Below are positions 3,259 to 24,810 of a stretch of DNA of 64,000 nucleotides, in pieces (the first letter of the stretch is position 1; the number at the start of each line of letters is the position of its first letter). The position numbers were made by a program, and so were the translations under genes. The notes beneath the pieces are model-generated. The model saw only the letters and a program-made list of their open reading frames with translations, was not told the DNA's origin and made no database searches. Source of the stretch: Flavobacteriia bacterium (GTDB taxonomy: Bacteria; Bacteroidota; Bacteroidia; Flavobacteriales; Schleiferiaceae); the NCBI GenBank assembly GCA_013373425.1, contig JABXHW010000038.1, positions 1-64,000 of the forward strand. Reading direction: 5' to 3'.

Positions 3259-4705
3259 CGAAGCGACCATTCAAAATGAACCTATAGCATCCATTGACTT
3301 AGTTGAGCGTGCATCCCAGGCGTGTTCGGCGTGGATTTTAGAAAACTACGAAGGTCAGTCCTCTTTTCACATCTTCTGTGGAATGGGGAACAACGGAGCT
3401 GATGGGTTAGCCATTGCTCGTCTTTTGGCAGAATCCGACCAAGAAGTATCTGTTCACGTCATAGCACACAGAAGCAACGGATCTTCAAATTTCGATCAGA
3501 ACATCAAGCGACTAGCTGAGGTGGGGATTGACGCGAATTATGTCAATAATCCGAAAGACATGCCCACCGTGCATGAGAATAGCATTGCGATAGACGCAAT
3601 TCTTGGAATTGGTCTCGGCAAGCCCCTTCGTGGGATATTGAAAGAAGTGGTGCAGTCGTTAGGTGAGGCCTATGAGCACATTATATCTATCGACGTTCCT
3701 ACTGGCTTGCCTTCGGATCTGCTCCAAGATTTCAACAGCAAGACCGTTGTTAAAGCCGCACATACACTCACTTTTCAGTTTCCAAAGCTTTCCTTCTTAT
3801 TAGCGGAAACAGGGGAGGTGACCGGTGAAATTCATGTGCTGGACATAGGTCTTGATGGTGTTGCCATACACGATACACCGAGCAATTTTCACATCACGAC
3901 CGAATTTGAAGCAGAGACCTTCCGCCCAACACGCAAGTCGTTTTCGCACAAAGGCACCTATGGACATGCGTTCCTAGTTGCGGGCCATGAAGGAATGATG
4001 GGAGCGGCCGTGCTTGCCACTCGAGCCTGTCTGCGCAGCGGTGCAGGTTGGGTATCTACTCATGTTCCTAAATCCGGACGTGATATACTTCAAATGGCTG
4101 CCCCAGAAGCGATGGTAAGTGTGGATCATGCTAACATGTCATTTACTGGCACAATCCTTTCGGATCGCTATTCTGCCATTGGAATAGGTCCAGGTCTGGG
4201 TAGGGAGACTAAATCTCTGGAAGCCTTGAAGAAGGTCTTGTCGGAAGTGCAGGTTCCCATTGTTCTCGATGCGGATGCACTCCACTTATTGAGCCTTTCC
4301 AAAGATTGGGACTTGTTACCGCCTCAAGCTGTACTCACGCCGCATATCGGGGAATTCAAACGCATGACTGGTAAGGAGTACAGTGGAACAGCCGAAATGC
4401 TTATCGATGCCATGACATGGGCAGAAGAGAAGAAGTGCTTTCTCGTTCTGAAAGGTGCTTTCACGGCAATCTGTACTCCGAATGGCGAGGTGTATTTCAA
4501 TACATCGGGTCACCCCGGCATGGCCACTTCAGGCAGTGGAGACGTATTAACAGGATTACTCACTGGACTGTTAGCTCAGGGAATCCCCATATTAAATGCC
4601 ATTCGATTTGGGGTATGGATGCACGGATTTGCCGGCGAAGAAGCCGCTGGAATAAAAGGCGAGCATGCGATGATTGCTTCAGATATTATCGAGAATCTTC
4701 AATAA
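3221..4705 (+). CDS. nnr: Bifunctional NAD(P)H-hydrate epimerase / ADP-dependent NAD(P)H-hydrate dehydratase
   Basis: N-terminal YjeF epimerase domain (FCGMGNNGADGLAIARLL) fused to C-terminal dehydratase (HKGTYGHAFLVAGHEGMMGAAVLATRACLRSGAGWV; GSGDVLTGLLTGLLAQG); 38-bp overlap with coaE. Confidence 0.93.
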   Translation: MKLFLSEQIRQIDEATIQNEPIASIDLVERASQACSAWILENYEGQSSFHIFCGMGNNGADGLAIARLLAESDQEVSVHVIAHRSNGSSNFDQNIKRLAEVGIDANYVNNPKDMPTVHENSIAIDAILGIGLGKPLRGILKEVVQSLGEAYEHIISIDVPTGLPSDLLQDFNSKTVVKAAHTLTFQFPKLSFLLAETGEVTGEIHVLDIGLDGVAIHDTPSNFHITTEFEAETFRPTRKSFSHKGTYGHAFLVAGHEGMMGAAVLATRACLRSGAGWVSTHVPKSGRDILQMAAPEAMVSVDHANMSFTGTILSDRYSAIGIGPGLGRETKSLEALKKVLSEVQVPIVLDADALHLLSLSKDWDLLPPQAVLTPHIGEFKRMTGKEYSGTAEMLIDAMTWAEEKKCFLVLKGAFTAICTPNGEVYFNTSGHPGMATSGSGDVLTGLLTGLLAQGIPILNAIRFGVWMHGFAGEEAAGIKGEHAMIASDIIENLQ

Positions 4706-6235: not shown

Positions 6236-6887
6236 CATCCAATACCTCAACTCTATTGCGCCCCAGACGAACAACGCCATTCTTTTCAAGTTGCTTGAGG
6301 AGTCTACTAATCACTTCTCGACTCGAATGCAAGTCGTTGGCAATCTCTTGATGTGACACCTTGAGCACTGGGTCGCCACCTTGATTGTCGATTCGTTCAC
6401 TGAAATAGCGCATTAATCGTTCATCTAGCTGATGGAATGCGATGGCGTCTATGGTTTCAAGGAGTTCTTGGAATCGATCGTGATAAATTCGCATCACGAA
6501 ACCTTTCCACTCGCTGAACACTTCCATCCATTCATCTACAAATCGTGCAGGTATGGCTAAAACTTGAGTATCCTCTTCTGCCAGAGCTTCAATTTCACTC
6601 GTCGTTTGCCCCATGCAACAAGTGAGACTACTTGCACAGGTTTCACCAGCGCGCAGATAGTAGAGTAGAAGCTCTCTATCGTCATCATCTCGTCGCATAA
6701 TGCGCAAACTGCCTCTCAGCAACAACGGGATGTATTCCACAGGCATGCCTTTGTCCATTACGAGTTCACCTGCATTATAAGATCTCAACTTACCTTCTTT
6801 GAGGAGGGCTTCAATAAGCTTCTCGTCGGAAAATAGCGGGAAAGCTGAAGAGATAACGTCGCGATTGAGCTCGAGTATTCTATCCAT
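6231..6887 (-). CDS. Crp/Fnr family transcriptional regulator
   Basis: Cyclic-nucleotide-binding-type sensor domain plus C-terminal wHTH (VSHQEIANDLHSSREVISRLLKQLEKNGVVRLGRNRVEV). Confidence 0.92.
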   Translation of the reverse strand: MDRILELNRDVISSAFPLFSDEKLIEALLKEGKLRSYNAGELVMDKGMPVEYIPLLLRGSLRIMRRDDDDRELLLYYLRAGETCASSLTCCMGQTTSEIEALAEEDTQVLAIPARFVDEWMEVFSEWKGFVMRIYHDRFQELLETIDAIAFHQLDERLMRYFSERIDNQGGDPVLKVSHQEIANDLHSSREVISRLLKQLEKNGVVRLGRNRVEVLDA

Positions 6888-14643: not shown

Positions 14644-14660
14644 GTAGCGAGGACGGGAGT
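14644..14660. repeat. Element attachment site (distal copy of tRNA-Met 3' end)
   Basis: GTAGCGAGGACGGGAGT identical to 23580-23596. Confidence 0.88.
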
Positions 14661-14760: not shown

Positions 14761-15126
14761 TCAAATAAAGGCCGAAATGTCTTGAAGGACCTTGCTTTTT
14801 GCCTTCTCTTCGGAGCTGTCGGACGTCTTCCAGTTTTCCTCTAAATACCTTTTCATTGTATTGAACACGTGTTTTTGTCCATACAACAAAGGGTTGCTCT
14901 CTGGCACTGGAGCATCCTTTTGATCTTGAATGTAGAAGTGATACATCGACAATCCTGAATCTCTACAGATGTCTGCGAGCTGCTGCACATCGAGTTGAGA
15001 CTCACCTTCTAGAATGCGTCTCAAACGCATATAGCTCATTTGATATTTCTCAGCAAACTCGCGCTGAGTGTAGTCTGAAGCTTTGACAAACTCCACAAAA
15101 AGGCTTGTGTTGAAACGCATATTCAC
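14761..15126 (-). CDS. Xre/HTH-type regulator (candidate element repressor)
   Basis: FVKASDYTQREFAEKYQMSYMRLRRILEGESQLDVQQLADICRDSGLSMYHFY, HTH_XRE-like; divergent from the rest of the element. Confidence 0.75.
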   Translation of the reverse strand: MNMRFNTSLFVEFVKASDYTQREFAEKYQMSYMRLRRILEGESQLDVQQLADICRDSGLSMYHFYIQDQKDAPVPESNPLLYGQKHVFNTMKRYLEENWKTSDSSEEKAKSKVLQDISAFI

Positions 15127-15198: not shown

Positions 15199-15411
15199 AT
15201 GTACGAACCTAAGTCAAAGCGAGTCCAAAAGCGTGCCAAGCAGATCACTAATGATTTCGTAGATGGGCTTGAGAGGGGTATGAGTCCTTCAGACATGTAC
15301 CCCATACTAGCGAAGCGATATGAATTTACGGAAGCATATATCCGAAAGCTCATTCCAGTAAAAGAGGCCCGAAAGGCTTTAGCTCTTCGATATGTCGGTG
15401 CGCAGGGTTGA
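15199..15411 (+). CDS. Small basic protein, possible DNA-binding
   Basis: ORF 70 aa, divergent from Xre gene, helical basic sequence; follows a TAnnTTTG box. Confidence 0.55.
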   Translation: MYEPKSKRVQKRAKQITNDFVDGLERGMSPSDMYPILAKRYEFTEAYIRKLIPVKEARKALALRYVGAQG

Positions 15412-15609
15412 TCTCTCCGCTTTCGGAATGATGGCTTGTCACGGCTGTGGTAAGCCTGTTTCTGTAGATGCGCATCAATTCAAATCAACGGCACGACCAT
15501 TCCTATTCCGTTAGGTGTCGTTTGGCCTATTGAGTCAAGAGACGGCTATTTAGAAGTTGAAATAGTAGATCCTGCAGGCGGAACGATTTGGATGTTGTTC
15601 ACTGATTAA
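15392..15609 (+). pseudogene. Frame-interrupted small ORF (CxxC-containing N-part, beta-rich C-part)
   Basis: Frame A 15392-15514 encodes MSVRRVDLSAFGMMACHGCGKPVSVDAHQ...; frame B ending at 15609 encodes SIQINGTTIPIPLGVVWPIESRDGYLEVEIVDPAGGTIWMLFTD. Either a frameshift or two overlapping small ORFs. Confidence 0.35.
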
Positions 15610-15622
15610 CTGATAAGCCAAG

Positions 15623-16813
15623 ATGACACACGTTGAGTTACTAGAGAAGATTTTCATTGGTTACAAAAAGACCTATACCGATCCACGTGAGTTCTGGGAT
15701 GTACTGAAAGAACTAGCAAATGGAACCGGAAATGCCTCTTTGGTTGTAGTGGACAGCATTGCAAACCTTCAGGCGTATGGTGCTGCAAGCGACGAGAATG
15801 TCAATACTTTGATTCTTGGAACGATGGATTCCGATGGCGGAATTTTCTACTACTCCACTGATGCTTTAGTTCCTGACGGGGTTAACATTATTAGCGCAAC
15901 AGGTCGAGGATCAGGCTATTGGGTAAGAGCTGTTCTATCAGGATCGGGCAATTTGTACACAGAAAATCCCGTGACAGAGCCCGGATTCCAATTCATTCAA
16001 GATCAGGACGACAACTATACAGGTTTAGGTCTTGCTCAGGTAGGACTCGCGGCTTACGGTCCAATCGTAACCGGAGAACCTGGAGGCGGGGTTTTTGACC
16101 CTACTTTTACCACAGCGGCTTTGTTCGCTATGGGCATGCTTACTGATGTTCAAGGCTCTGGCGCTGTCGGTATTGGTTCTATTGTGAAGTCTCAGGGACA
16201 AAGCTCGGTCGCAATTGGTACAGGCACGCAAGCGCTGGAAAATCATGATGTAGCATTTGGTCAAAACGCTATTGCTTCAGGTCAGAACAGTGTTGCATTC
16301 CAAGGAGCTAATGCAGAGGCGATTTATAGCTTTTCCCATGGCAACTCAGCGCTTGGAAGATGGGCGGGGGCCTTCACCTACGGCTACGCTCAGAATAATA
16401 ACGACAGAATCACGAATAAACCATATGTGGGTAGAACGCTGCTCAACTACCTCACGAATGATGCTACTCCAGTAGACCTATCTGATGGATCAACGGCTCA
16501 AAGTCCCTTCGTACTGAGAGACAACAGTTTTTGGGAGTTTGTAGTTGAAGTTTCGGCAATAGAAGTTGGGACGTTGACGACTGCTGCAAGGTGGTCATTC
16601 AAGGGTGTGATTTCTCGTGGAGCTGGTGTAGCCACCGTCGCAATTGTTGGTGTTCCAATAAAGACTGTCCATTTCAACGGCCTAGCAACTGCGGATATAG
16701 AAGTCATTGCAGACACGACCCGAGGATCATTGGCTGTTAGAGCTACGGGAGAGGCCGCAACTTCAATTCGATGGATTGGAGAAATTGTTCTAGCTGAATG
16801 CTTAATCGCCTAA
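15623..16813 (+). CDS. Phage-like fibre/adhesin with YadA-head-type repeats
   Basis: GSGAVGIGSIVKSQGQSSVAIGTGTQALENHDVAFGQNAIASGQNSVAFQGANAEA matches the left-handed parallel beta-roll repeat style of trimeric autotransporter heads. Confidence 0.6.
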   Translation: MTHVELLEKIFIGYKKTYTDPREFWDVLKELANGTGNASLVVVDSIANLQAYGAASDENVNTLILGTMDSDGGIFYYSTDALVPDGVNIISATGRGSGYWVRAVLSGSGNLYTENPVTEPGFQFIQDQDDNYTGLGLAQVGLAAYGPIVTGEPGGGVFDPTFTTAALFAMGMLTDVQGSGAVGIGSIVKSQGQSSVAIGTGTQALENHDVAFGQNAIASGQNSVAFQGANAEAIYSFSHGNSALGRWAGAFTYGYAQNNNDRITNKPYVGRTLLNYLTNDATPVDLSDGSTAQSPFVLRDNSFWEFVVEVSAIEVGTLTTAARWSFKGVISRGAGVATVAIVGVPIKTVHFNGLATADIEVIADTTRGSLAVRATGEAATSIRWIGEIVLAECLIA

Positions 16814-16822
16814 TAAAGAGCT

Positions 16823-17548
16823 ATGCCAACTACAAATATCATTCAAGCAACCAAAGACTATCTCACAACGAGAAATGAAGTGTATCCAGTGAATACCGCA
16901 ATTTTCGAAACCGATTATGGCTTCGCCAAGATTGCTGATGGCGTGACCGCTTATAATTCACTGCCCTATGAAAGTGTAGGGGGAGGTGGTGGAAACCTAG
17001 AAACCGCCGCTGCTATCAGCTCAATTCCTCAAGTGGTAGAAGACGCGAACACAGGAGACGATTCAGCCTTATTACTCGCTCGATCATTCACGGGAGTTCA
17101 ATATGGAAACTTCTCAGCCGCGGGGGATACTCAATATCTGAGAACTAACCTAATCAAATCCATTGCTGGAGCATCGAGCTTCACAAATGAGGAGATATGG
17201 ATTGGCGGAATCACAGATTTCAACATTCAGGTTCCTGACGGAGAGACTTGTTTCTACAAAATTAGACTTCGTGCAGAGCTTTCGACCGGTGGAGGCCCGG
17301 AAATTACGGTGAGAGATAGCACTATTCAAGGCGCAATGTCGGTTACAGCTGCGGGGGCCAATACAGGAGCATACAGCACCGAGGTTAATATAACGGATAA
17401 CACAACCGGGTTGACCTTCAATGTTGCAGGAGACGCTGCGACAACGCCAAATGAAATTTTAATCAGAGCTTCCTTCGGATCAGCGTTTAACAGCTGTCGA
17501 ATATTCGGATGGGCTGAACTAATGTATCATCCTTACATCGATGCCTAA
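16823..17548 (+). CDS. Phage-like structural/tropism protein (Mtd-N-like N-terminus)
   Basis: N-terminal NTAIFETDYGFAKIADGVTAYNSLPYESVGGGGG resembles N-terminal modules of phage tropism/tail-fibre proteins. Confidence 0.5.
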   Translation: MPTTNIIQATKDYLTTRNEVYPVNTAIFETDYGFAKIADGVTAYNSLPYESVGGGGGNLETAAAISSIPQVVEDANTGDDSALLLARSFTGVQYGNFSAAGDTQYLRTNLIKSIAGASSFTNEEIWIGGITDFNIQVPDGETCFYKIRLRAELSTGGGPEITVRDSTIQGAMSVTAAGANTGAYSTEVNITDNTTGLTFNVAGDAATTPNEILIRASFGSAFNSCRIFGWAELMYHPYIDA

Positions 17549-17939
17549 GTATAAGTATTTCAGCAAATCGGATTTTGAGGAGAGCGATATCATTCGTGTT
17601 CCTTGTTCGATCAACGATATCCGACCATCGACGTTGCAGAGGTTTGACCAAGCTCGTGAATATGCGGGTTTTCCATTCGTTGTTACATGCGGAGCACGAA
17701 CCTTAGAACATGAGAAGAGCAGAAATAGAAACGGATTTACATCTCACTTGGTTGATGATGAGAGAGGCATAAAGTGCAAAGCACTTGACCTGAGAATTAC
17801 ACAACCCCGGAAGCGATTTATTGCTACCAGAGCATTAATGAGAGCCGGATTTACAAGAATCGGCATTTACCCATGGGGGCTACATGTCGATGATGATGAA
17901 AAGAAACCTCAAAATGTAATTTGGCATGGGACCCATTAG
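17541..17939 (+). CDS. Peptidase M15-like protein (candidate endolysin)
   Basis: FVVTCGARTLEHEKSRNRNGFTSHLVDDERGIKCKALDLRI (SxH...AxD) and GIYPWGLHVDDD (HxD) zinc-ligand pattern of M15. Confidence 0.72.
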   Translation: MPKYKYFSKSDFEESDIIRVPCSINDIRPSTLQRFDQAREYAGFPFVVTCGARTLEHEKSRNRNGFTSHLVDDERGIKCKALDLRITQPRKRFIATRALMRAGFTRIGIYPWGLHVDDDEKKPQNVIWHGTH

Positions 17940-18333
17940 AATCGGCCTAAAGAAAGGCAAGTCATACGAAGACGCTCACGGTGTCACTCACAGTAATGCT
18001 GTGATTGTTCCCGGAGTGATAAATCATAACTTAGCTCTGAGAACCATATCCGCTCAGTGGTTCATCTATGCGAATGAGAGCGCTGTCTATTCGAAAGCTC
18101 CGCTCGCGGTGGCCTTTTCTCAGGATTTCAACGCACAGAAAATTCCCAATCACACAGATAAGGACGGAAATGTGCTTTCTTACGGTAAAGCCTCCTACTC
18201 AGAGGCAATTAGCATGTTTGATTTCGCCGACAATGGAATCTTTATTCAGGACCCAGAGGCTCGAGACTATTTAATGAGAACATCTTTCATCGGTAACAAG
18301 CCCTTGACCGAGGATTGGGAAATCACCAAATAG
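17926..18333 (+). CDS. Hypothetical phage-module protein
   Basis: ORF overlapping both neighbours in a co-directional cluster. Confidence 0.55.
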   Translation: MGPIRIGLKKGKSYEDAHGVTHSNAVIVPGVINHNLALRTISAQWFIYANESAVYSKAPLAVAFSQDFNAQKIPNHTDKDGNVLSYGKASYSEAISMFDFADNGIFIQDPEARDYLMRTSFIGNKPLTEDWEITK

Positions 18334-18334
18334 A

Positions 18335-18793
18335 ATGAACTGTAGACAAATTCCTTTAGTTCAACCCTCAATAACTCCGATATCTGAACGCGAGTACGAG
18401 CTGGACGCCTATCATGTTTCCACCTTTGATTACACTGGTGATGGTCAATTTGCAAAGCTGATAATTCAACCAAAATTCGTTTATGACGGTGCCAGTGTCC
18501 CTAGGTTACTGTGGTCCCTCAGTGGTATTCGTCCAGATGGGTTAAATCGTGCCGCCTCTTTGGTCCATGACTACATATACGTGAATAAAGGCGAGCTCCA
18601 TTACTCTGAAATCGAACTGTGCTACCATGGCCAATGGTGCAGAGGGAAGAATATTAAGATTTCAAGGTTGCAATGTGATCGAATCTTCTACCATCAATTG
18701 CGAGAAGCTGGAGTTAGTAAGACAAAAGCAAGAATGGCTTATATAGCTGTTCGCGGATTTGGTTGGATTCCATGGATGAAAAAGAAGAAGTAA
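18335..18793 (+). CDS. DUF1353 family protein
   Basis: FVYDGASVPRLLWSLSGIRPDGLNRAASLVHDYIYV matches the DGASxPR...HDxxY pattern of DUF1353. Confidence 0.8.
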   Translation: MNCRQIPLVQPSITPISEREYELDAYHVSTFDYTGDGQFAKLIIQPKFVYDGASVPRLLWSLSGIRPDGLNRAASLVHDYIYVNKGELHYSEIELCYHGQWCRGKNIKISRLQCDRIFYHQLREAGVSKTKARMAYIAVRGFGWIPWMKKKK

Positions 18794-19071
18794 TGACGAA
18801 CGAAGAACGCCTGCAGGTGAACTTTTATAAGTTCATTCAGCCCATACTGAGTTCATTAACTACGGTAGCTGTGATTACACTAGCTACTTTTCTGAATAAG
18901 CTCAATACCAACATGGCCGTCATTCAAACTGAAGTCAAGTCAATTAAAGAGGACGTCCATGAAATGAGGTCGAAATATGTTAGCAAGGACGTATTTCAGT
19001 CGCATGAAAGGGAATGGGAGCGTAGAATTATGAACGTTGAATCTCGAATTAGGGTAGTTTCTGGGAATTAA
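18793..19071 (+). CDS. Small membrane protein with one TM and coiled-coil tail (holin-like candidate)
   Basis: ILSSLTTVAVITLATFL TM then heptad-rich helix; TAATG overlap with DUF1353 gene; follows M15 gene. Confidence 0.5.
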   Translation: MTNEERLQVNFYKFIQPILSSLTTVAVITLATFLNKLNTNMAVIQTEVKSIKEDVHEMRSKYVSKDVFQSHEREWERRIMNVESRIRVVSGN

Positions 19072-19106
19072 TAACTGGTGTATAGTGTGTTAATCGTGGT
19101 GGCCAA

Positions 19107-19139
19107 GGCGTCATATAGGAAACTATATGGCGCTTTTTT
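19107..19139 (+). terminator. Terminator after the lysis-like module
   Basis: GGCGTCATATAG-GAAA-CTATATGGCGC-TTTTTTG. Confidence 0.8.
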
Positions 19140-19162
19140 GTATCAACACACCTCTTCAGGTA

Positions 19163-19222
19163 TTGAATAGATACTAAAAAGACTTGAATAAATACTGAAT
19201 TTATGATTACTACTTATGTTTG
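19163..19222 (+). promoter_or_regulatory. Promoter region of ImmA/PIN operon: tandem TTGAATARATACT plus TATGTTTG -7 box
   Basis: TTGAATAGATACT (19163-19175) and TTGAATAAATACT (19184-19196), 21-bp spacing; TAnnTTTG match TATGTTTG at 19215-19222. Confidence 0.5.
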
Positions 19223-19387
19223 AAAAAGGTTTTGTGGAAATTCCATAATCTTGCATGAACGCAAGATGTCTCACTTTCATTAATCTCTCAATCTCTATTT
19301 TGCTCTTTTAGAGCTTCGAAAGCTACGATTACCAAATTCTTTGATTAACAGCAGAAACATTGTCTGCTTTTGTTCTATCGACAACTC

Positions 19388-20566
19388 ATGCAAAAGGAAA
19401 TTTCAATAAACAACGATAGGTTGAGCTACTTAATCGAAATGTTCGATTTTAGTGAGGACTTTCTATTGGATTACCTGAACGAGTCTAGAAAGAAGTTTAA
19501 GTTAAATAGAGATGACGTTTTTGGTGGGCGTCTCAAATTATCAATCCTTAAAAAAATTGATCTTCTATTCAAGGCTGGTTTGGAGTTTTATTTAGACCCA
19601 TCTCCAATCTTGGACAAACAGTCTCGTAGTGTGTTTTTCAGAAAGTCAGGATTGAATGTAGATTTAAGCCTGGGTGCAAAACAAAGAGTTTTTGAGGGTG
19701 AGCAGTTATACGCCACGCTTCGTGGCCTAGAACATCTTACAGGTCAAAGCACTGAACGTACTTTACCTATTTTTTCAATAAAAGATGACCCTATTGGCGT
19801 CGCGTTGGATGTTGCTACTATCGTAGCGCCCCCTGAGGTGAAACCATCTAATACCAAGCGTGATGTTTTAAAGATTTTTGTGAATCGCTTGGGTGAAGCG
19901 GGTATTTATGTTCATGAATTCATTGACCAAAAAAACAAAATTGAAAAGGCTAATATTGATGGAGCCTTCATTGCCCCGAATTTCATCATAATTAAGCGAG
20001 AGAGCGACACGCAGCTTATCAGTCGAGAAATATTCACGTTAGCACATGAATTCGGGCATTATCTTTTGAATGAAGAAGAGGCTGAAGAAGTAGATCAATC
20101 TGACGTGTTGAAGGAAGATGAACGAAATGATGTGGAGCGGTGGTGTGACATGTTCGCATTTCATTATTTGTTGGGTTCTCACTTTGATGATTTCATGTCA
20201 TTACAACCGCTAACAGCGGATAACGATTTCCAAAATAAGTTGATTGATGATATATATAATCGAACAGGTTTAAGCAAACGTGCATTATTCTATAATCTGC
20301 ATCTTCAAGGCAAGTTGTCTCGGCTTAAATACACAACCATCAAGGAAAGTCTAAATGAAATTCTTGAAATGCGGAGGCAGAAAGCTGCCCTTGAATTGGA
20401 GCAAGAAAAAGCCAGCGGGCAAAAAATTATCCGTATTCCGAAGAGAATATATTCAGAAAAAGTGAGAGGGCTTGCAGAAAGTGCCTATCTATCAGGTCTT
20501 ATCGAGGTGACTGAGTTCAAGCACCTTACAGGCTACACCTTTGATAGAATCAAGAAGTCCTATTGA
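19388..20566 (+). CDS. ImmA/IrrE-family metallopeptidase
   Basis: EIFTLAHEFGHYLLNEEEAEEVD (HExxH) with downstream WCDMFAFHYLLG; large N-terminal extension. ATG at 19388 preferred over TTG at 19370. Confidence 0.85.
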   Translation: MQKEISINNDRLSYLIEMFDFSEDFLLDYLNESRKKFKLNRDDVFGGRLKLSILKKIDLLFKAGLEFYLDPSPILDKQSRSVFFRKSGLNVDLSLGAKQRVFEGEQLYATLRGLEHLTGQSTERTLPIFSIKDDPIGVALDVATIVAPPEVKPSNTKRDVLKIFVNRLGEAGIYVHEFIDQKNKIEKANIDGAFIAPNFIIIKRESDTQLISREIFTLAHEFGHYLLNEEEAEEVDQSDVLKEDERNDVERWCDMFAFHYLLGSHFDDFMSLQPLTADNDFQNKLIDDIYNRTGLSKRALFYNLHLQGKLSRLKYTTIKESLNEILEMRRQKAALELEQEKASGQKIIRIPKRIYSEKVRGLAESAYLSGLIEVTEFKHLTGYTFDRIKKSY

Positions 20567-21120
20567 TGAAGTATATCTTTGACACTAACACTCTTGTAAA
20601 CCTATACAGGTACGTCTATCAGATTTGTGAGAACAAGGATGATTTGATTGAGTTTTTTGAAAATATGGTGGCAGACGAAGAAGTTCTAGTATTAGAGAAA
20701 GTACTAGAGGAGTGCAGTTATCACCAGAGAACATTAAAAGGCGAATTGTTTCCAATTTTTGATACGGATGCACATTTTATTGTTAACAAAAGTGGAATCA
20801 TCGCAACTGGAGAATTTATTTCCGAGCTTGACAAACATCTATTAACTCGTGAAGGCGCTTTATTAAAAAAGAGTGAGATAACAGCTTTTGAGGCCCGTAG
20901 AACTAACTTCCTTCGCTCAGCAGATGCTCAAATGGTAATTTATGCGCTTGACCTTATTGCAATGGGTGAGAGTGTTACAATCGTCAGTGAAGAGTCAAGA
21001 AGACAGAACGACGGTAAGGAGTTCAAGAAGTTACCAATAATTTGTGACCATTTTAAAGTAAGCGTTTGCTCCCTTGCTGACTTCCTGAACATTATGAACG
21101 CAAGATTCACTTTTGAATGA
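20563..21120 (+). CDS. PIN-like domain protein, DUF4411-like
   Basis: KYIFDTNTLVNLYRYV, VLEKVLEECSYH, SADAQMVIYALDLIAMGESVTIVSEES, LPIICDHFKVSVCSLADFL; ATGA overlap with ImmA gene. Confidence 0.75.
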   Translation: MMKYIFDTNTLVNLYRYVYQICENKDDLIEFFENMVADEEVLVLEKVLEECSYHQRTLKGELFPIFDTDAHFIVNKSGIIATGEFISELDKHLLTREGALLKKSEITAFEARRTNFLRSADAQMVIYALDLIAMGESVTIVSEESRRQNDGKEFKKLPIICDHFKVSVCSLADFLNIMNARFTFE

Positions 21121-21195
21121 TTTTAGGAAGAACAACTCTTCGGTACGAAGTATCGATAACAATAAAAAAATCTAAATCTTGCTATCACTGGGCTC

Positions 21196-21996
21196 ATGAT
21201 AAGTGAAAATAGATATAATCTTCCGTCAATTCAGTCATCTTTGGCTATAGGATATGTTATCCTCATCTTACTCTCTTATTATCGACTAGATCACTTTTAT
21301 CGACACTTTGATATCCAAATTTCTAATTACTTAACTCCTACTGAGTATTTGATGCCCGTCTTGCCAGTGGCAAGTCGTTTTATTTGGGTTCTACCAGTCA
21401 TTGTCATCTTCATTTTAATAATGGCATATGGACATCCAGGAGATGTAAAGTCAGATGAGGAAACTTCTGATGATGTTGAAAATTCCCAATTAAAGTATAG
21501 GTTTAATGGAATTGCTTTGATTCTGGCACCACTTGTATTGATCAGTGTAAGTTTTGTTCATCATTATTTACACTTAGAATATCTTTGGATCGGGCATATT
21601 GTGACAGGCGTTTTTTTGGTGTTAGTTTTATTTTATTTAGACATCAGAATGTATGGCAGAATAAAAAGAAAAGGCCCTGTAAGGCACGGAATGACAGTGT
21701 TGTTCTTAGTTGTAGTGATTAGCTCAGTTCTCGCAACTGATTCAACCCGAAGAGCTAAGAAAATACTCATTGACAAAGAGTTGGTTTCAGAATGTCAATA
21801 CTTCTCAGAGACTTTACAAATGTCCACTAGTGAAAGCTTGTTCTTTATTGATGAATCAATGGAGTACATCTTTTTTTACGACTTTGAAAAGTCTGAATCA
21901 GTTATCATCAAGAAGACTTCGGGATATAGAATTCACTATAAGAAAGCATTATCTAAATCAACTACAGAGTTGTTGTTAGAGTCTTTATCCTTTTAA
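21196..21996 (+). CDS. Multi-TM membrane protein of unknown function (cargo)
   Basis: Four to five hydrophobic segments, C-terminal soluble part; same strand after the PIN gene. Confidence 0.6.
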   Translation: MISENRYNLPSIQSSLAIGYVILILLSYYRLDHFYRHFDIQISNYLTPTEYLMPVLPVASRFIWVLPVIVIFILIMAYGHPGDVKSDEETSDDVENSQLKYRFNGIALILAPLVLISVSFVHHYLHLEYLWIGHIVTGVFLVLVLFYLDIRMYGRIKRKGPVRHGMTVLFLVVVISSVLATDSTRRAKKILIDKELVSECQYFSETLQMSTSESLFFIDESMEYIFFYDFEKSESVIIKKTSGYRIHYKKALSKSTTELLLESLSF

Positions 21997-22149
21997 TAAA
22001 AGGAGCACAAAGTACATTTAGCAAATGAACGATGGTATTAGCCCCTTATTCATATTTCAAATTCCACTCATCGCCCATAAACTGAATCTATATTTAATCC
22101 CCCTGCCCCCCAAAAAAAAATGCGGAAGGTGCAAGATATTGGTCGAGGG

Positions 22150-22319: not shown

Positions 22320-23477
22320 CTATAAGTTTTGAGTGTATCGGAGTAGTTCTGGAGCTGCATTTTGGTTCTCTTTCGGGGTGTATTTATCGGTCACAGAGAT
22401 GTCATAGTGGCCAGCTTGATCTCTGACCACAATAGTAGGGACTCCCATTTGGAGCATCGCAGTAATTCCTGTGTCTTTTAAACTGTAGAACTTATAAGCA
22501 TGATCAAAGCCCAACTCGTTTCTAGTTTTCACCCATGTGTCTGATACTTTTTTAGGTGTCAACTGGATTGCCCCTGGCATGAAGTGATCGGCTGAAAAAA
22601 GGAAGTCTGACGGCTTGGCCTTTTGAGTGTGCTTTTCGAGGACACTTAGAAGGTCATCAGGTACCGTAGTGACTCGATCACGCTTGTTTTTGGTGTCCAC
22701 GGCCGTTACGAATAGTGTCTGATTAGTCAAATTGAGGTGTTCTACCCTGATTTTACACAGCTCAGTTCGTCTAATGAAGGTGTAAAAGATGGTCATGCAC
22801 AAAGCATAATACCCTGGATATGTTTTGAGATGTGTGAATATCTGGGAAAGCACGTCTCTGGGTATCACTTTGCGTTGTTTGATGCTTTCAGGGAGCTTCG
22901 GAATACTATCAGCTGGATTAGACGGTAAATACTTTTTCTGGACCATGTAGACACATAGCCGGTGAAAGAAAGAGAGGTAATTATTCCTGGTCCTAGAGGT
23001 ATTTCCTCGCTCTTCCATTATATGAACCAGGAAATTGTCGATTACAGTTGCGGTCAGTCGAATGGCTGCTTGATCCATTGACTTTTGTCCATACCATGAC
23101 TCGAAATTCTTCAAATAGGACTTGTAAGCTCTTATAGTGTCAGGTCGAATGGCCTTTTGCTTCTCCAGGTTCTTTTTTTCCTTCATGAAGTTGGTAAACG
23201 CATCTCGCAAAGAGATAAACGTCAATTGGCCATCATCTTCTATAAAAGGATTCCACCCTGATGCGAGCTTAATTGTCAAATTACGACAGAGGTTGAGTGC
23301 TTCAGATTCTCTTTTCTTGAGATTCTTAATGCGATTGAACTTGTATCGGACTTCTTTTAGTTTGCCCGTTTCTGGATGACGAACGCGAAACGAAACATAC
23401 CAGGTGGACTTCCCTTTATGTAAAATGGCGGGGGTAAAGTCAACCATGGGGACGAGAGTGGTTAGCTTTTCAGTCAT
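22320..23477 (-). CDS. Tyrosine recombinase/phage integrase
   Basis: YTFIRRTELCKIRVEHLNL (first Arg), AGHYDISVTDKYTP (H-x-x-hx...Y), SAM-like N-terminal domain; lies next to the tRNA att site. Confidence 0.9.
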   Translation of the reverse strand: MTEKLTTLVPMVDFTPAILHKGKSTWYVSFRVRHPETGKLKEVRYKFNRIKNLKKRESEALNLCRNLTIKLASGWNPFIEDDGQLTFISLRDAFTNFMKEKKNLEKQKAIRPDTIRAYKSYLKNFESWYGQKSMDQAAIRLTATVIDNFLVHIMEERGNTSRTRNNYLSFFHRLCVYMVQKKYLPSNPADSIPKLPESIKQRKVIPRDVLSQIFTHLKTYPGYYALCMTIFYTFIRRTELCKIRVEHLNLTNQTLFVTAVDTKNKRDRVTTVPDDLLSVLEKHTQKAKPSDFLFSADHFMPGAIQLTPKKVSDTWVKTRNELGFDHAYKFYSLKDTGITAMLQMGVPTIVVRDQAGHYDISVTDKYTPKENQNAAPELLRYTQNL

Positions 23478-23539
23478 GGATATCAAACTCAGGACTCCCG
23501 AAAAAAGTATCGAGTTAGTGCCGTTATGGGCAATAAAAA

Positions 23540-23579: not shown

Positions 23580-23596
23580 GTAGCGAGGACGGGAGT
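23580..23596. repeat. Element attachment site (3' end of tRNA-Met)
   Basis: GTAGCGAGGACGGGAGT identical to 14644-14660. Confidence 0.88.
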
Positions 23597-23654
23597 TGAA
23601 CCCGTGACCTCAGGGTTATGAATCCTGCGCTCTAACCAACTGAGCTACCTCGCC
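23581..23654 (-). tRNA. tRNA-Met (CAT anticodon)
   Basis: GGCGAGGTAGCTCAGTTGGTTAGAGCGCAGGATTCATAACCCTGAGGTCACGGGTTCAACTCCCGTCCTCGCTA folds as a cloverleaf with CAT anticodon. Confidence 0.93.
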
Positions 23655-24184: not shown

Positions 24185-24810
24185 TGTCTAAAGGCGGAAG
24201 AGTTTTTACAATTCTGACCGTATTTTTCGCCCTCGTGGCTATGGCGTTTCTCATCCGATGGGATAAAGGAACGATTCATTTAGCCATGGACGCCTGGCAC
24301 ACGGGAACATCCCCAACCTTTTTCAAGTATTGGACACACCTAGGTGATGGAATCGCTGTAGTTGCAGCTGTAGTTCTACTACTCGCACTCAGAAGGTCAG
24401 GAGCCATGGTCATTTCGACAGCCGTAACAGGTATCACTGTATTAGTGGTTATTGGCCTCCTCAAGAATGTGGTGTTTGAAGATGTCGACAGGCCTTGGGG
24501 CTACTTCGAAGAAGGCACCCTCCGTTTGATACCCGACCTCGAGCAGCACAGTCATAAGAGTTTTCCCAGCGGACATACAACTGCCGCATTTGCATTGTAT
24601 GCCATCCTCGCGTTTTGGATTAACAAGCGATGGGCGAGCATAGGGCTGTTTCTAATAGCTCTAAGTGTGGGCTACAGCAGAATGTACCTCAACCAGCATT
24701 TCCTGATTGATGTGTTTGTAGGTGCTTTGCTCGGAACTGCCATTGCTTGGCTGAACTACTATATATTCAGTAGTTCACGAAGCCCAAGGCTGAGGTCGAA
24801 ACTCTTCTAG
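24181..24810 (+). CDS. PAP2-family phosphatase
   Basis: KSFPSGHTTAAFALYAI and GYSRMYLNQHFLIDVFVGALLG motifs. Confidence 0.9.
   Translation: MMSKGGRVFTILTVFFALVAMAFLIRWDKGTIHLAMDAWHTGTSPTFFKYWTHLGDGIAVVAAVVLLLALRRSGAMVISTAVTGITVLVVIGLLKNVVFEDVDRPWGYFEEGTLRLIPDLEQHSHKSFPSGHTTAAFALYAILAFWINKRWASIGLFLIALSVGYSRMYLNQHFLIDVFVGALLGTAIAWLNYYIFSSSRSPRLRSKLF

Follow-up and report, generated by a model that had tools for sequence, protein, structure and literature searches.

A probable ImmA–DUF4411 toxin–antitoxin module carried as cargo in an internally deleted provirus at a bacterial tRNA-Met gene

Results

Gene content of the locus

The window, by which we mean the whole 64,000-nucleotide stretch of DNA analysed, carries three neighbouring genes on one strand, encoding an ImmA/IrrE-like peptidase with an HEFGH motif, a DUF4411 PIN-domain protein and a protein with several membrane-spanning segments (Table 1). 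A first-pass annotation of this DNA had placed all three here, and open reading frames, Pfam matches and hydrophobic segments bear this out. The peptidase (392 aa) matches PF06114 at 27.9 bits against a cut-off of 22, and the PIN protein (184 aa) matches PF14367 at 48.2 bits against a cut-off of 23.5. Both frames are intact, free of stops and frameshifts, and all catalytic residues are kept. However, the 4-bp ATGA overlap previously described between the two genes needs correction: the peptidase stop codon TGA occupies 20564-20566 and the PIN start codon ATG 20566-20568, giving an overlap of 1 nt (TGATG), and the letters ATGA at 20566-20569 are just the start codon of the PIN gene and the base that follows it. 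A 4-nt overlap (TTGA) is possible only if an upstream TTG at 20563 is taken as the PIN start. The TGATG stop-start arrangement is still suited to translational coupling of the two genes. The membrane protein gene begins 75 nt past the PIN stop codon. Promoter-like motifs were too frequent to serve as evidence.

Table 1. Features of the integrated element and its cargo, with positions in the window.
Feature	Position	Strand	Evidence or remark
attL, 17-nt direct repeat GTAGCGAGGACGGGAGT	14644..14660	.	identical to 23580-23596
Xre-type HTH protein, putative repressor of the element	14761..15126	-	HTH_3 20.5 bits, below cut-off 23; 69% identity, same end of G002 provirus
70-aa protein of no assigned function	15199..15411	+	60% identical to G002 provirus homologue
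Deletion junction	15472..15475	.	5' stub of 124-aa gene joined to 3' end of 87-aa gene (tblastx)
Retained late module, six genes	15623..19071	+	profile matches; first five homologous to G002
YadA-head fibre	15623-16813	+	
Spike-like protein	16823-17548	+	
M15 endolysin-like protein	17541-17939	+	
135-aa protein, late module	17926-18333	+	
DUF1353 protein	18335-18793	+	
Holin-like protein	18763-19071	+	
Terminator-like hairpin, 14 pairs, closing the late module	19105..19136	+	32-nt match, same place in G002
Cargo slot	19139..22098	.	not homologous to the corresponding part of the G002 provirus
ImmA/IrrE-like peptidase gene, predicted antitoxin (VapB52/RmrA-like)	19388..20566	+	PF06114; phrog_2439 1.6e-15; 32-36% identity to seven DUF4411-gene partners
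N-terminal domain, residues 1-75, five predicted helices	19388..19612	+	AlphaFold2 model, mean pLDDT 78.5
FFRK linker motif, residues 83-86, counterpart of VapB52 FR motif	19634..19645	+	invariant in 8/8 aligned sequences
HEFGH zinc-site motif	20045..20059	+	H220, E221, H224 and downstream E250 invariant (8 aligned sequences)
DUF4411 PIN-domain protein gene, predicted RNase toxin	20566..21120	+	PF14367 1.4e-12
Membrane protein gene, 266 aa, independent cargo	21196..21996	+	five hydrophobic segments
Tyrosine integrase	22320..23486	-	XerA/XerC/XerD-type models to 3e-21; 82% identity to G002 provirus integrase
tRNA-Met, integration target	23580..23654	-	ARAGORN; 3' end 23580-23596 = attR

A deleted provirus with a variable cargo slot

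The three genes lie within an 8.9-kb element at a tRNA-Met gene, bounded by the 17-nt att repeat. A genome of the same genus, G002, carries a 25.4-kb provirus at the same tRNA-Met, bounded by the same repeat, and in a second congener, G001, the site is empty with a single repeat copy, such that one attachment site gives a clean empty, full and deleted series. In a tblastx alignment, the matches to G002 on one side of the window junction end at coordinate 7941, and those on the other side begin at 24585. By comparison with G002, the window element corresponds to a provirus of that type minus about 16.6 kb at one joint, and it is best seen as a defective provirus because a single joint fusing two gene fragments is the signature of a deletion. 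The first five genes of the retained late module, from the fibre to the DUF1353 protein, share 47-72% identity and the same order with G002; of the holin-like gene only the start matches G002 DNA, and weakly. The attachment sites, the deletion and the cargo slot described below go beyond the first-pass annotation.

The G002 provirus looks complete (loci L062 and L063; contig C1, about 472.5-497.9 kb, between the att copies). It also encodes a primase/helicase-like protein, two DNA methyltransferases (Dam and Dcm), many small membrane proteins and a small P-loop ATPase that weakly matches a terminase. Neither capsid nor tail-tube genes were recognised in it, and its ATPase found no match in searches of viral contigs and phage records. 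It is a candidate for an undescribed, possibly tailless, temperate virus group. Phage records or viral contigs likewise returned no relatives of the spike, integrase, ImmA or PIN proteins of the window.

Homology to G002 stops at 19138, just past the terminator, and resumes at 22099. In the window this interval is filled by the three genes, in G002 by small genes unrelated to them. The window genes have 34-39% GC compared to 40-47% for the rest of the element, and they are exchangeable cargo in a variable slot. In G002 the slot (L062, 8560-10742) holds four small genes with no Pfam match above cut-off, three of which are also unmatched in PADLOC; these are possible further cargo of interest. 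At a related locus (L040), an identical 300-bp direct repeat (4236-4535 and 6408-6707) flanks an ImmA-DUF4411 pair, which suggests recent gain or loss of that pair by recombination. As a general mobility signature, flanking repeats were rejected; neither the window nor the other six close loci have anything like them.

The peptidase and PIN genes form a conserved pair

In a sample across the phylum, the PF14367 profile was present in 56 of 297 genomes. At the loci retrieved, each of the 48 distinct normal-length DUF4411 genes has an ImmA-type gene directly upstream on the same strand, encoding a protein of 357-420 aa with the HEXXH motif. Counting from the first possible start, 29 of these 48 pairs overlap by exactly 4 nt. 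The peptidase was unselected in 42 of the loci, which were recruited via the PIN protein or its family; the remaining six were recruited via the peptidase. Peptidase distances correlate strongly with those of the PIN partners (Mantel r 0.94, with none of 2000 permutations above 0.21). The pairing is more than chance because every surveyed DUF4411 gene has such a peptidase partner, and the two genes are a conserved module whose strict pairing holds over a phylum-wide sample. Seven loci close to that of the window (L040-L046) have peptidases 32-36% identical to its own.

The co-occurrence survey proposed earlier for the peptidase, the PIN gene and the membrane gene therefore gave a split answer, with the two-gene pairing upheld (48/48) and this membrane gene found next to none of the other 48 pairs. 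Homologues of the membrane protein occur in G002 (27-28% identity) and in another genome, G005 (19-22%), and neither adjoins an ImmA-PIN pair; the one in G002 lies elsewhere in the provirus, on the opposite strand. The membrane protein is a separate, independent cargo gene. Together with the genes at L007 and L008, the window gene (21196-21996) makes up an orphan membrane-protein family from two proviruses and one chromosomal locus, with five hydrophobic segments, a soluble C-terminal part and, in two of the members, a YLTPxEYL motif.

Features of the two proteins

The peptidase model has a mean pLDDT of 78. Between the N-terminal domain, which matches no HTH family in Pfam, and the peptidase domain, residues 76-90 with the FFRK motif form a low-confidence, probably flexible stretch, and three helices are predicted in the C-terminal part (residues 357-391). 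Comparison of this model with solved structures gave weak matches, the best being PrpR of M. tuberculosis (6cyj/6d2s). A sequence profile of the peptidases matches chain A of PDB entry 9vzy (E 3.4e-4). For a sister pair (L036), the matches are 3.6e-31 to chain A and 1.4e-11 to chain D, a DUF4411 protein.

Of the 48 homologues of the PIN protein, 47-48 retain each of the acidic residues D6, E49, D120 and E143. Its model (mean pLDDT 80) most resembles tRNA-processing PIN enzymes, namely HARP-type protein-only RNase P (PRORP/HARP), and after these VapC-type PIN proteins, with modest TM-scores of about 0.4-0.6. Direct comparison of its profile with solved DUF4411 chains gives only a weak match (E 0.5-0.9), and the link runs via intermediate members of the family.

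Discussion

Relationship to known systems

PDB 9vzy is the VapB52-VapC52 complex of M. tuberculosis (Rv2515c-Rv2514c; also 9vzz), a proven toxin–antitoxin pair (PMC13273310). VapC52 is a DUF4411 toxin that cuts tRNA, and VapB52 is an HTH+ImmA antitoxin, one molecule of which binds two toxins in a 1:2 complex; its N-terminal domain is critical for toxin binding and its C-terminal domain covers an active site (PMC13273310). Single-stranded DNA triggers self-cleavage of VapB52, with the cut probably close to the FR motif of its N-terminal linker, and M. smegmatis was protected from phage D29 by overexpression of the toxin, not by the intact pair (PMC13273310). The window pair shares with this system the adjacent genes, an ImmA-type Zn-peptidase next to a DUF4411 PIN protein with its active site kept, and, in the predicted antitoxin, the HEXXH site and the FR linker motif. 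The helices predicted at both ends of the peptidase would fit the domain order of VapB52, with an HTH-like domain at the N-terminus and a helical domain at the C-terminus. The window pair differs in that the similarity is visible only by profile or via intermediates, in its place as provirus cargo, and in a key residue of the peptidase. In VapB52, as in CapP, a cysteine located 13 residues past the first histidine of the zinc site (C229 in VapB52) keeps the protein inactive, and both proteins are thought to sense ssDNA via this cysteine switch. The window peptidase has no cysteine at H+9 to H+16, a range that includes the VapB52 position (H+13). This trigger is therefore doubtful for the window antitoxin and should not be assumed for its branch. 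Since 55 of 56 relatives also lack the switch-position cysteine, the switch does not define the wider family; with nearly all examined members in this state, either the trigger differs or another residue substitutes. The sample's only ImmA relative with a cysteine at the VapB52/CapP position is encoded at 1117-2265 of locus L005 (genome G020), where it precedes a DUF4411 gene.

The pair also resembles the broader group of ImmA-domain antitoxins with variable toxins. In the NetFlax study, ImmA emerged as a hub antitoxin whose toxins include PIN-like proteins (PMC10440598), and RosmerTA (RmrA/RmrT) and pneumococcal RipAB share with the window pair the ImmA-domain antitoxin, PIN-like toxins in the reported ImmA zone and residence in mobile elements, some being antiphage (PMC10440598, PMC12795458). 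However, the PADLOC RmrA models match the window peptidase weakly (best 6.5e-7), the RmrT models do not match the PIN protein, and the Rosmer toxins tested so far are not DUF4411 proteins. Operons of COG2856-Xre and PIN genes in phages, prophages and plasmids were predicted to be toxin–antitoxin-like by Makarova et al. in 2009, who proposed a third, separate Xre repressor as the substrate (PMC2701414); no separate Xre gene adjoins the window pair. The pair is of a widespread and already described kind, of which the window holds a further member in a distant lineage.

A predicted toxin–antitoxin module

Taken together, we consider it likely that 19388-21120 is a type II toxin–antitoxin module made of two genes, an HTH/ImmA + DUF4411 system that occupies the cargo slot of a provirus with an internal deletion. 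A toxin–antitoxin or defence unit had been one of two readings offered by the first-pass annotation, and homology to VapBC52 and RosmerTA together with the 48/48 pairing supports it strongly. By analogy we infer for the window pair a toxic PIN protein, its neutralisation, a tRNA target, antitoxin self-cleavage with its trigger, and a part in defence. The PIN protein would act as an RNase toxin, probably cutting tRNA, and would be kept inactive by the ImmA-like protein. Damage or phage infection might activate the peptidase, which, if it behaves as VapB52 does, would then cut its own FR linker and so separate the N-terminal domain that grips the toxin. The PIN toxin freed in this way would halt translation, with either abortive defence or addiction to the element as the outcome.

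Alternative interpretations

The competing reading makes the peptidase the anti-repressor of the element, which would cleave the Xre protein (14761-15126) for excision and leave the PIN gene incidental. ImmA of ICEBs1, which cleaves the Xre-type repressor ImmR, is the precedent; the window peptidase belongs to the same family (PF06114) and likewise shares an integrase-bearing element with an xre gene. Yet it lies about 4.3 kb from that gene, on the other strand and in a variable slot, has added N- and C-terminal domains, and co-occurs and co-diverges with its constant partner, the PIN gene, not with the element. Moreover, the G002 provirus keeps the Xre protein in a genome with no PF06114 gene, and the same search finds two in G001. 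Because the element's regulator persists there without any ImmA, derepression is unsupported; we rejected it as the main role and regard an anti-repressor as very unlikely. The suggestion that the membrane protein is a third component, an effector or sensor of the ImmA-PIN system, draws on its shared strand, slot and similarly low GC and its short distance from the PIN gene, and on the fact that some Rosmer toxins depolarise membranes (PMC10440598). Its absence from all 48 other pairs, and homologues in G002 and G005 that lie away from such pairs, led us to reject this candidate and make such a role very improbable.

Decay of the carrier raises a different question, whether the pair is itself a non-functional leftover in a dead provirus. 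The carrier is indeed deleted, but both frames are intact with every catalytic residue kept, and there is little chance that this reading is correct. Conversely, the 8.9-kb element might be not a decayed provirus but a functional satellite that uses the particles of a relative, with the module competing with the helper. In favour of this, the integrase, xre and both att ends are still present, the fibre and lysis genes are intact, there are no genes for replication or packaging, and the cargo is defence-like. However, the element is explained by one clean deletion, marked by two truncated gene stubs where the ends meet, a single case was seen, and a homologue of the packaging-type ATPase of G002 was not detected in the element's own genome (one query, run without a positive control); we therefore think a satellite unlikely. 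An extension, which we regard as a long shot, is that the deleted provirus excises and spreads via a full-length relative at the tRNA-Met site, the module responding to a signal other than the ssDNA/cysteine one and aborting that relative's infection. If true, the deleted provirus would be a minimal satellite with a PIN toxin as its weapon.

Defence context

Placing a probable toxin–antitoxin module in a defective provirus brings the ImmA-DUF4411 type, tested in one mycobacterial case, into a distant lineage as provirus cargo. Its role may be defence, or maintenance of the element. Two sister loci, chosen because they looked promising, have defence genes as neighbours: at L040 these encode TIR proteins and a type II restriction-modification pair, and on a Mucilaginibacter plasmid (L097) a CBASS cyclase and a 2TM effector.
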